Under the pieces are notes generated by a model that worked only from the letters and a program-made list of their open reading frames with translations, ran no database searches and was not told the origin of the DNA. Source: Bacteroidales bacterium (GTDB lineage: Bacteria; Bacteroidota; Bacteroidia; Bacteroidales; GCA-2748055). From it: a DNA stretch of 33,751 nt. Shown here one piece after another: positions 2,377 through 30,104 of the stretch; positions within the stretch are counted from its first letter, which is position 1, and each line of letters starts with the position of its first letter. Made by a program: the position numbers and the translations under genes. The stretch lies in the NCBI GenBank assembly GCA_029938715.1, contig JAOZUK010000029.1, positions 2,325-36,075 of the forward strand. The letters run 5' to 3'.

Positions 2377-3042
2377 ATGGATACAAAAGGTCATTGCTTT
2401 CCAAAATCAATTATCATACAAGCAGTATATTTGAAAATACGTTTTTCATTAAGTTATCGGGATGTTGAAGAGATAATGAGAATAAGGGGAGTAGAAGTGG
2501 ATCATGCCACTATCCAGAGATGGGTTTTTAAGTTCATGCCAGAAATTGAAATCCAAATGCGAAAGAGAGAGAAGGAAGTTGGCAAGCGGTGGCGGATGGA
2601 TGAAACTTATATCAAAGTGAAGGGTGTCTGGCGCTATTTATATCGAGCAGTCGATAAGGATGGACATACGATTGATTTTCTTCTGACAAAGCGAAGACGG
2701 CGTTTGAGTACTCAGTCATTTTTAATAAAGGCAATAGAAAACAATGGCACACCAGAGTTAATCAATATTGATAAAAGTGGTTCTAACAAAAGTGCGATCA
2801 AATTATATAACAAAAGATCATTTACCAATATTGAAATCAGGCAATGTAAATACTTGAATAATATAGTGGAACAGGACCACCGGTTTATTAAGTGGCGCAT
2901 TCAACAGGGCTTAGGATTCAAGGAATTTGAGTCAGCAAGAAGAACAATTACAGGGATTGAGATAGTCCATATGATTAAGAAGAATCAACTGAATACTCAA
3001 GAGCAAAGTATGTTTAAATCGTTTAATTCCTTAGCCGCTTAG
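2377..3042 (+). CDS. IS6-family DDE transposase
   Basis: The 221-aa protein appears intact; the family's usual length is about 225-240. An N-terminal helix-turn-helix-like segment (SYRDVEEIMRIRGVEVDHATIQRW, residues 26-49) precedes the DDE catalytic core. The catalytic residues are D75 in RMDETYIKVKG, D132 in NIDKSGSN and E165 in NNIVEQDHR, with the family's usual spacing. The YLYRAVDKDG segment and the basic C-terminal region also match IS26-like enzymes. These transposases catalyse replicative cointegrate formation at the 12-bp ends seen here. There is no frameshift or internal stop, so the copy could be active. A small hairpin lies directly upstream of the ATG. No passenger gene is present. 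Confidence 0.93.
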   Translation: MDTKGHCFPKSIIIQAVYLKIRFSLSYRDVEEIMRIRGVEVDHATIQRWVFKFMPEIEIQMRKREKEVGKRWRMDETYIKVKGVWRYLYRAVDKDGHTIDFLLTKRRRRLSTQSFLIKAIENNGTPELINIDKSGSNKSAIKLYNKRSFTNIEIRQCKYLNNIVEQDHRFIKWRIQQGLGFKEFESARRTITGIEIVHMIKKNQLNTQEQSMFKSFNSLAA

Positions 3043-29111: not shown

Positions 29112-29582
29112 TTAATAATCAAGACGATTGATTATCGCAGAGTATACAACGGCTGTTCCTGCATCGAAATCCTTAACAATATCGAAATAGTTGGGTCCTG
29201 CATCAGGATCCATATCACCCTCCATTGTTTCACTTATTGGGTCACCATCGGTGAGTAAAATATCTTGATCATCATGGTCAAGACTGCTCATAATTTGGTC
29301 ATAGTCATCCAGAATTGATTTTGAAGGAGCTGCTGATGCTGCAGCCTGTTCAGACTCTTCCAAAACAAGATCATCTTCATAAACTTGCAGGTCTGCAACC
29401 TGAGGATCCTCCTGCCCCATCCTGAGAACCCGCTCTAGGTTTTCCATAAAACCAGGTCGAGCTTTATCATCTGAATCACCGGGGCTTTGATTTACCCGCT
29501 TTTTCTTTTTACCCAGTACCCCTATGATGATTGCTACCAGAGTAATCACTACGTAGAGAATATTTCCTATATCAAAATCCAT
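29112..29582 (-). CDS. Small acidic single-pass membrane protein, unknown function
   Basis: I do not recognise this family. The 156-aa protein has one N-terminal transmembrane helix (ILYVVITLVAIIIGVLG, residues ~8-24) followed by a KKKKR stop-transfer cluster. The remaining ~125 residues are a soluble, very acidic, Asp/Glu-rich and probably largely disordered cytoplasmic tail. It ends in a short more hydrophobic segment (YFDIVKDFDAGTAVVYSAIINRLDY). The layout suggests a membrane-tethered scaffold or regulator, which is only inference. It is oriented with greA and precedes it. Bacteroidota genomes often carry similar short TM-plus-acidic proteins. Confidence 0.75.
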   Translation of the reverse strand: MDFDIGNILYVVITLVAIIIGVLGKKKKRVNQSPGDSDDKARPGFMENLERVLRMGQEDPQVADLQVYEDDLVLEESEQAAASAAPSKSILDDYDQIMSSLDHDDQDILLTDGDPISETMEGDMDPDAGPNYFDIVKDFDAGTAVVYSAIINRLDY

Positions 29583-29651: not shown

Positions 29652-29659
29652 TACTTTTG
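29652..29659 (+). promoter_or_regulatory. Candidate -7 box of the lipoprotein gene
   Basis: TACTTTTG matches TAnnTTTG and ends only 7 bp before the ATG at 29667. No -33 TTTG is found at the right distance. Confidence 0.4.
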
Positions 29660-29666
29660 CAAAAGC

Positions 29667-30104
29667 ATGCGGCGCATTCAATCCATTTTTACCATAATTT
29701 TGTTCCTGATTCTTCCGGGGATGCTTACTACATCGTGTGAGTCCAACCGGGGACAGGTTATACCTTATGTGAAGGTGGATGTGTACCTGTTTCTCTATGC
29801 AGATCTTGCTGGTGTGGGAATCGGCTCATCCAAACTGATTGCCGGACACGGTGCCAATGGGATTGTACTCTACCGGGCTTCGGACCTGGAGTTTTATGCC
29901 TATGACAGAACCTGCACACTCTGGCCCGAACATACTGCAGCAGTTGTAGAAGACAGTACTTTTTTCGGAGTATTTGAATGCCCGGAATGCAAATCAACCT
30001 ACCTGCTGATGAATGGTGCCGAACCCAATTCTGGACCGGCTACCTACCCCCTGGTTGAATACCACACCTCCATTCGCGGAGATGTCCTGCATATCTTCAA
30101 TTAA
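29667..30104 (+). CDS. Lipoprotein with degenerate Rieske-like domain, unknown function
   Basis: The 145-aa protein starts with a lipoprotein signal peptide with lipobox LTTSC (C24). The rest looks like a Rieske fold: GIVLYRASDLEFYAYDRTCTLW (residues 65-86), FECPECKSTYLLMNG (103-117) and GPATYPLVEY (123-132), which match the cluster-loop and C-terminal GPA-xx-PL-xx-Y pattern of Rieske proteins. A true Rieske site is C-x-H plus C-x2-H. Here the positions are C83/L85 and C105/C108, so both histidines are absent. A normal Rieske [2Fe-2S] site is therefore unlikely; a different metal site or a structural role is possible. It is probably an outer-membrane or periplasmic lipoprotein. No operon partner is visible. 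Confidence 0.72.
   Translation: MRRIQSIFTIILFLILPGMLTTSCESNRGQVIPYVKVDVYLFLYADLAGVGIGSSKLIAGHGANGIVLYRASDLEFYAYDRTCTLWPEHTAAVVEDSTFFGVFECPECKSTYLLMNGAEPNSGPATYPLVEYHTSIRGDVLHIFN

Follow-up and report, generated by a model that had tools for sequence, protein, structure and literature searches.

A Rieske-fold lipoprotein lineage of Bacteroidota that lacks the Rieske ligand set and may carry a remodelled metal site

It is the ligand set that defines Rieske proteins, a well-known class of electron carriers. The gene described here, from a Bacteroidales bacterium, raises the question of what such a protein has become when the fold is kept and the ligands are gone. It lies on the forward strand at positions 29667–30104 of the window, the whole 33,751-nucleotide stretch of DNA that was analysed, as an open reading frame of 145 amino acids plus stop (ATG at 29667, stop codon ending at 30104). 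The product begins with a predicted signal peptide (residues 1–23, MRRIQSIF..., 29667–29735), which appears from its sequence to be of the Sec/lipoprotein and not the Tat type. Cys24 (29736–29738) follows as the putative lipid anchor; it fits a lipobox and is a cysteine in 80/80 aligned members, in agreement with an earlier note on this DNA that had called the protein a lipoprotein. That note had also given the motifs C83-x-L85, C105-x2-C108 and GPATYPLVEY, and all three read as stated. The Rieske ligand motif is given as C-x-H-x(15-47)-C-x2-H in the available part of one account (PMC11138216), and the window protein does not match it. Cys83 (29913–29915) and Cys105 (29979–29981) occupy the first and second cysteine ligand positions, with Leu85 (29919–29921) and Cys108 (29988–29990) at the first and second histidine positions. 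GPATYPLVEY (residues 123–132, 30033–30062) corresponds to the Rieske GPA..PL..Y segment, G123 being found in 73/80, P124 in 69/80 and Y132 in 80/80 aligned members.

The earlier note had proposed a conserved Rieske fold without its histidine ligands and named structure prediction as the check. The AlphaFold model, built from 49 sequences (mean pLDDT 86.8), returned a Rieske fold over residues 36–145 (29772–30101); a second predicted model, of the relative L102, has a pLDDT of 89.7. At E<=0.001 a structure search with the window model matched 28 chains of the PDB, which belong without exception to Rieske-type ferredoxins, bc1/b6f complexes, other Rieske proteins or arsenite oxidase. VIA aligned residues 36–145 of the model with 9rk4_A at the best Z of 12.6, followed by 5cxm (Z 11.2). 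The proposal is supported as well by the profile of the 80 aligned members, which matches the Rieske proteins 5cxm (E 2.6e-6) and 8hn2 (E 2.6e-5) in the PDB. The single window sequence gives no phmmer match in the PDB; it reaches E 0.15 against Pfam Rieske PF00355 (12.5 bits, below the curated cut-off of 20.3) and E 4.8e-5 against NCBIfam PRK09965, far below that model's cut-off. PF00355 is matched at E<=0.01 by 13/80 members. The Rieske layout of the window protein thus exceeds chance, and the predicted fold is that of a Rieske domain.

A Rieske fold without a cluster has a precedent in NirD, the small subunit of nitrite reductase. NirD is a cytoplasmic enzyme subunit, whereas the window protein is probably an exported lipoprotein with conserved cysteines. 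The NirD model (TIGR02378) is weakly matched by 5/80 members at E<=0.01 and is absent from the matches listed for the window protein up to E 10. The resemblance to bc1/b6f-type Rieske proteins (9rk4, 5cxm, 1rfs; PF00355) covers the fold, the loop layout and the GPA..PL..Y segment, and many relatives have a cysteine pair where the disulfide joining the loops sits in those proteins. The window protein differs from them in lacking C-x-H...C-x2-H, in having a lipoprotein signal in place of the Tat-like one, and in having no bc-complex gene among its identified neighbours. Weak NCBIfam matches had also suggested a subunit that carries electrons in a dioxygenase or bc complex; this identity was rejected, as the ligand set is missing and no partner occurs among the identified window neighbours.

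The protein is widespread. A protein search found one match per genome in 82/100 genomes, the window's own included, so that the description of the protein as unusual in the earlier note does not fit this lineage. The 80 aligned members are 80 of those 82 rows, L027 (masked) and L074 (N-terminus missing) being left out. A contig scan gave 54 loci, 53 titled Bacteroidota of some rank and one archaeon, with about 15 of the genomes already among the 82. At E<=0.001 the family profile matches 154/247 genomes of the phylum, a count in which full-ligand relatives are included; 69 loci from this search were examined, 29 as given by the search and 40 hand-picked to spread over groups. The resulting wider set of 207 rows (191 without duplicates, 190 without the masked L027) splits into 36 rows with C-x-H...C-x2-H, among them L002 and L003, both ordinary Rieske proteins encoded in the same genome as the window, and 154 without it, including two that are apparently different degenerate Rieske proteins (L207 and L208). 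These last two (CTHGKRQL...CCSIGTS and similar) have lost the second histidine and look non-orthologous. A conserved family of Rieske-fold lipoproteins without the Rieske ligand set is therefore real, and its wide, single-copy presence suggests a role in the envelope. No paper on a Rieske lipoprotein lacking the histidines was found among the matches listed in the open-licence literature.

The ancestry of the family was approached with a tree of the wider set from which the ligand columns were excluded (190 rows by 104 columns; of 187 inner branches, 91 are open). One branch, with an SH-aLRT of 93 where the tool's mark is 95, separates the rows that have the ligand set from those that lack it. 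The simplest reading is a single change, presumed to run from ligand-bearing to ligand-less forms. The window protein would then most likely have its origin in Rieske lipoproteins of the same phylum that carried the cluster. The family profile covers such full-ligand lipoproteins over about 12–144 in L170, 18–144 in L176 and 11–144 in L177; they differ from the window protein in retaining CTHQG or CTHEG, CxxHG and a Tat-like RK-x-F-L signal. The two groups also differ at residue 80 (Asp80 in the window, 29904–29906), which is Asp or Glu in 152/154 rows without the ligand set and Ser or Thr in 30/36 with it.

The signal peptides divide along the same branch. A Tat-like pattern, defined as RR, RK or KR followed by x-F-hydrophobic and chosen after some sequences had been viewed, occurs in 34/36 relatives with the ligand set versus 3/154 without. 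A strict twin-arginine pattern occurs in 18/36 versus 4/154, one of these four (L020) having it past the lipobox. The window protein has RR followed by I-Q-S and no Tat-like motif by the pattern used. The hydrophobicity of the signal core (Kyte-Doolittle) has a mean of 1.80 in the 36 ligand-bearing rows versus 2.32 in 153 of the others (P 1e-12); the value of the window protein, 2.49, is reached by 1/36 ligand-bearing relatives. Each of the two groups makes up one side of that branch, and the signal and ligand differences therefore count as one event and not as 190. A tatC gene is present in the genome and within the window itself, so an absent Tat route is not the reason for the missing signal. 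Rieske proteins are described as Tat cargo with cofactors inserted before export, and lysine in place of arginine as poorly tolerated, in the available part of PMC7317946. Given that Tat-like signals accompany the ligand set and are mostly absent from the ligand-less rows, the window protein's family probably leaves by Sec, unfolded and without a [2Fe-2S] cluster built in the cytoplasm. Tat export of the Tat-like set is itself a presumption, since about half of that set lacks the strict twin-arginine pattern. On this scheme the 2-Cys/2-His [2Fe-2S] site would have been lost together with its accompanying Tat-like signal, and the lipoprotein would probably cross the inner membrane unfolded and fold outside.

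What the old cluster loops hold now depends on the residues that remain there. The earlier note had asked whether homologues consistently lack the histidines. The second histidine is found in 0/80 aligned members, position 108 being Cys in 78, Thr in 1 and Ser in 1; the first is present in 6/80. The note's refuting condition, homologues without conserved cysteines, has a divided outcome: C83 and C108 are each present in 78/80 and lost together in the other two, and C105 is Cys in 50/80 and Asp in 24/80. Position 107 is Cys in 29/80. Among the 154 ligand-less rows of the wider set the counts are C83 139, His85 41, C105 112, C107 58 and C108 122. C83, C105 and C108 occur together in 89 of them, C83 and C108 without C105 in 33, C83 and C105 without C108 in 17, C105 alone in 6 and none of the three in 9. 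Nine members (L048 3017-3478, L079 3057-3536, L141, L143-L146, L148 and L151) have lost C83, C105 and C108 and keep a second cysteine pair. Another kind (L152, L154-L164) has CxC in loop 2 followed by an acidic or other residue.

Within the window's own family these positions are much more uniform. D80, C83, C105 and C108 are each present in 26/26 rows, and every row combines the three cysteines with one histidine, which is His89 (29931–29933 in the window) in 24 and His85 in the other two (L040, L041). Loop 2 of this family reads CPxC, as in a rubredoxin or zinc knuckle; four candidate ligands for a zinc-ribbon- or rubredoxin-like site occur in 26/26 rows, with exceptions elsewhere. In the window's clade, one ion, Zn2+ or Fe2+, would most likely sit in the old cluster loops, with two loop-1 residues, C83 and H89, and the loop-2 knuckle C105-P-x-C108 as proposed ligands; the protein would then serve as a structural or binding part and not as a Rieske electron carrier. 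This reading as a whole, an envelope lipoprotein of Rieske fold that has lost the cluster site and the Tat-like signal and has a single-metal site in the window's clade, is favoured here at a little short of an even chance. Across the ligand-less rows, His85 or His89 is present in 52/71 three-cysteine members versus 15/83 others, in a three-cysteine sample that was enriched by a pattern-driven scan. Several points count against the metal site. C105 is replaced by Asp in almost a third of the aligned members and is dispensable elsewhere; His85 drifts, position 85 being Tyr or Asn in the close relatives L105, L113 and L128; and 19/71 three-cysteine members have neither His85 nor His89, 11 of those 19 also lacking any other loop-1 histidine or extra cysteine. 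Nor do the histidines and C105 change jointly on the 154-row tree: by parsimony, His85/89 and C105 have 19 and 11 change branches and share 1 (P 0.51).

The same tree gives a different result for the cysteines. C83 and C108 have 8 and 7 change branches and share 5 (P 5e-8), and the additional loop-1 cysteine and C107 have 20 each and share 11 (P 5e-10). These joint changes are parsimony counts over the entire best tree, in which many branches are weakly supported, so the P values are optimistic; an independent-pairs test on well-supported branches only yielded 1 to 4 pairs among the tests listed, too few to inform. C83 and C108 thus change together, a pattern compatible both with a disulfide and with a metal held in common. 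The main rival to the single-metal site is a disulfide between C83 and C108, clamping the loops in place of the cluster and leaving C105 as a spare thiol in a purely structural protein, a reading regarded as possible but on the doubtful side. It agrees with the absence of C105 from 33/122 members that retain C83 and C108, and with the finding that, where C105 and C108 have both been lost, C83 is retained in 0/139 cases. In many relatives it would add a second bridge, between the loop-1 cysteine and C107, equivalent to the bc1/b6f Rieske disulfide; a PDB profile alignment pairs these two residues with the cysteines of the CTHxxC and CPCHG loops, and a bridge links both Rieske loops in A. faecalis AioB according to the part of that report available (PMC3758308). 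But joint loss would also be expected of two ligands of one metal, and a lone thiol would remain in 26/26 rows of the window's family.

The background of thiol oxidation also bears on the disulfide. In the window's genome, searches at E<=0.001 gave neither VKOR nor DsbB, and a DsbD homologue is present; of 100 genomes, this one included, 1 has DsbB and 0 reach the VKOR cut-off, with 1 weak VKOR match. Even and odd cysteine counts were compared by heuristic gene and signal calling in parts of two genomes, with no outside positive control. In G016, of the same genus, represented by 40 of about 90 contigs at <=20 kb each, the even/odd numbers are 24/35 for spI proteins, 18/28 for lipoproteins and 115/115 for cytoplasmic proteins, with no even-cysteine excess among the exported ones; in G041 they are 8/13, 6/5 and 66/78. 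With DsbD present, VKOR and DsbB unmatched and no such excess, free thiols are plausible, and together with His85 or His89 in 26/26 rows these results lean towards the metal in the window's clade. The loop-cysteine/C107 pair is kept and co-changing although DsbB and VKOR are nearly absent from the 100-genome sample. The earlier note had left the choice between a different metal site and a structural or redox-sensing lipoprotein; the first two are narrowed here to a 3-Cys/1-His single-metal site and a C83-C108 disulfide, and for the third there is no specific support. Redox sensing or thiol-disulfide exchange by the three cysteines is considered very improbable. CPxC does resemble redox CxxC pairs, the three thiols occupy both cluster-loop positions and a DsbD homologue is at hand, but the motif sits in a Rieske and not a thioredoxin fold, C105 is often Asp and no thiol-redox gene occurs among the identified window neighbours.

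Engineered Rieske proteins indicate what the loops can tolerate. In the available part of the study of ARF, an archaeal Rieske protein of S. solfataricus (PMC2946596), Rieske loops are described as resembling those of rubredoxin and zinc ribbons, and replacement of the second histidine by cysteine (H64C) kept a [2Fe-2S] cluster with three cysteines and one histidine. The triple mutant H44I/K45C/H64C, in which both histidines were replaced and one cysteine was added, gave a mononuclear, rubredoxin-like centre; H44C by itself was unsuccessful, and cluster assembly was largely defective in H44C/H64C. These differing fates show that the Rieske scaffold permits more than one outcome. The window protein is like these variants in having cysteine for the second histidine and, like the triple mutant, an aliphatic residue for the first (Leu85); it is unlike them in that they are recombinant laboratory mutants, whose fourth ligand is a cysteine three residues past the first where here it is perhaps His89. 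The H64C variant also raises a NEET-like site, in which a [2Fe-2S] cluster would still be bound by three cysteines and one histidine, at least in relatives reading C-P-H...C-P-x-C, such as the L124 type. C83, H85, C105 and C108 are indeed combined in 32/154 members. Such a cluster is nonetheless improbable, as the window protein has Leu85 and His85 drifts among its close relatives, and as the Tat-like signal is absent in 151/154 members when the Rieske cofactor is inserted before Tat export (PMC7317946, available part).

The single-metal site of the window's clade would then be one case of a broader history, proposed here tentatively and as somewhat less than evenly probable, in which a phylum-wide lineage of Rieske-fold lipoproteins dropped the 2-Cys/2-His site and the Tat-like signal once and remodelled the same loops into several sites, among them a metal site of three cysteines and one histidine, mononuclear or NEET-like, and disulfide-paired forms. 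If this is true, the remodelled loops are natural counterparts of the engineered conversion of a Rieske protein into a rubredoxin. With the predicted Rieske shape kept and the cluster-holding residues lost, a former electron carrier has apparently been put to another use, perhaps with a simpler metal site. A kept fold, dropped ligands, ligand-bearing relatives and a matching shift of signal make the family a system for studying how an iron-sulfur protein changes function, and allow one to ask whether cluster loss and exit from Tat coincide. The family is also a caution against labelling these genes as subunits of iron-sulfur or ferredoxin type.

As to where the protein acts, an outer-membrane location is presumed, the lipobox being the one feature that points there. 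The available part of PMC12578637 describes two or more acidic residues among the six after the lipid cysteine in BamH-K, and at least two were adopted here as the rule for Bacteroidota surface lipoproteins. The window protein (CESNRGQ) has one, and 77/150 rows have at least two. Identity with a subunit of the Bacteroidota BAM complex was considered and set aside, as no named subunit is described as Rieske-like in the available parts of PMC12611786 and PMC12578637; the protein could belong to another complex.

The gene neighbourhood offers no partner. The window neighbours with Pfam matches are RuvC, HIT, GreA, FAD synthetase/riboflavin kinase (ribF), seryl-tRNA synthetase and EamA, together with ahcY. 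The ORFs flanking the gene, 29112–29582 and ahcY, are both on the opposite strand, and the earlier note's statement that the gene lacks an operon partner holds for the window. Wherever greA, HIT, ahcY or ribF occurs at a related locus, it too lies on the opposite strand, which gives the gene a monocistronic appearance at those loci. With L003 excluded, 136 loci match the family, many with only 1.5 to 3 kb of flank: 93 of them have greA or HIT, 94 have ahcY, 81 have both sides and 30 show none of the window neighbours. The window's family retains both sides at 26/27 loci; the genome-search set does so in 32/82, with no window neighbour in 28/82. Gene order clearly weakens outside the window's family. 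The contig of L128 is titled Methanoregulaceae archaeon; its gene is adjoined by HIT, greA and ahcY, and it is probably mis-binned.

The Bacteroidota promoter -7 box has the consensus TAnnTTTG. This occurs within 80 bases upstream in 71/118 rows, some genomes being entered twice, versus 6.06 in shuffles. In the window the sequence TACTTTTG (29652–29659, forward strand) is likely the gene's own -7 box. It ends 7 bases 5' of the ATG, as it does in 15 rows in all (some genomes twice), and at this distance the transcript may be nearly leaderless. The divergent ORF 29112–29582, on the reverse strand, encodes a small protein whose N-terminus is hydrophobic and whose tail is acidic; it matches nothing in Pfam or NCBIfam up to E 10 and lies near the gene in 42/137 loci. 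Elsewhere in the window, 2377–3042 is a transposase ORF (DDE_Tnp_IS240, E 4.6e-39).
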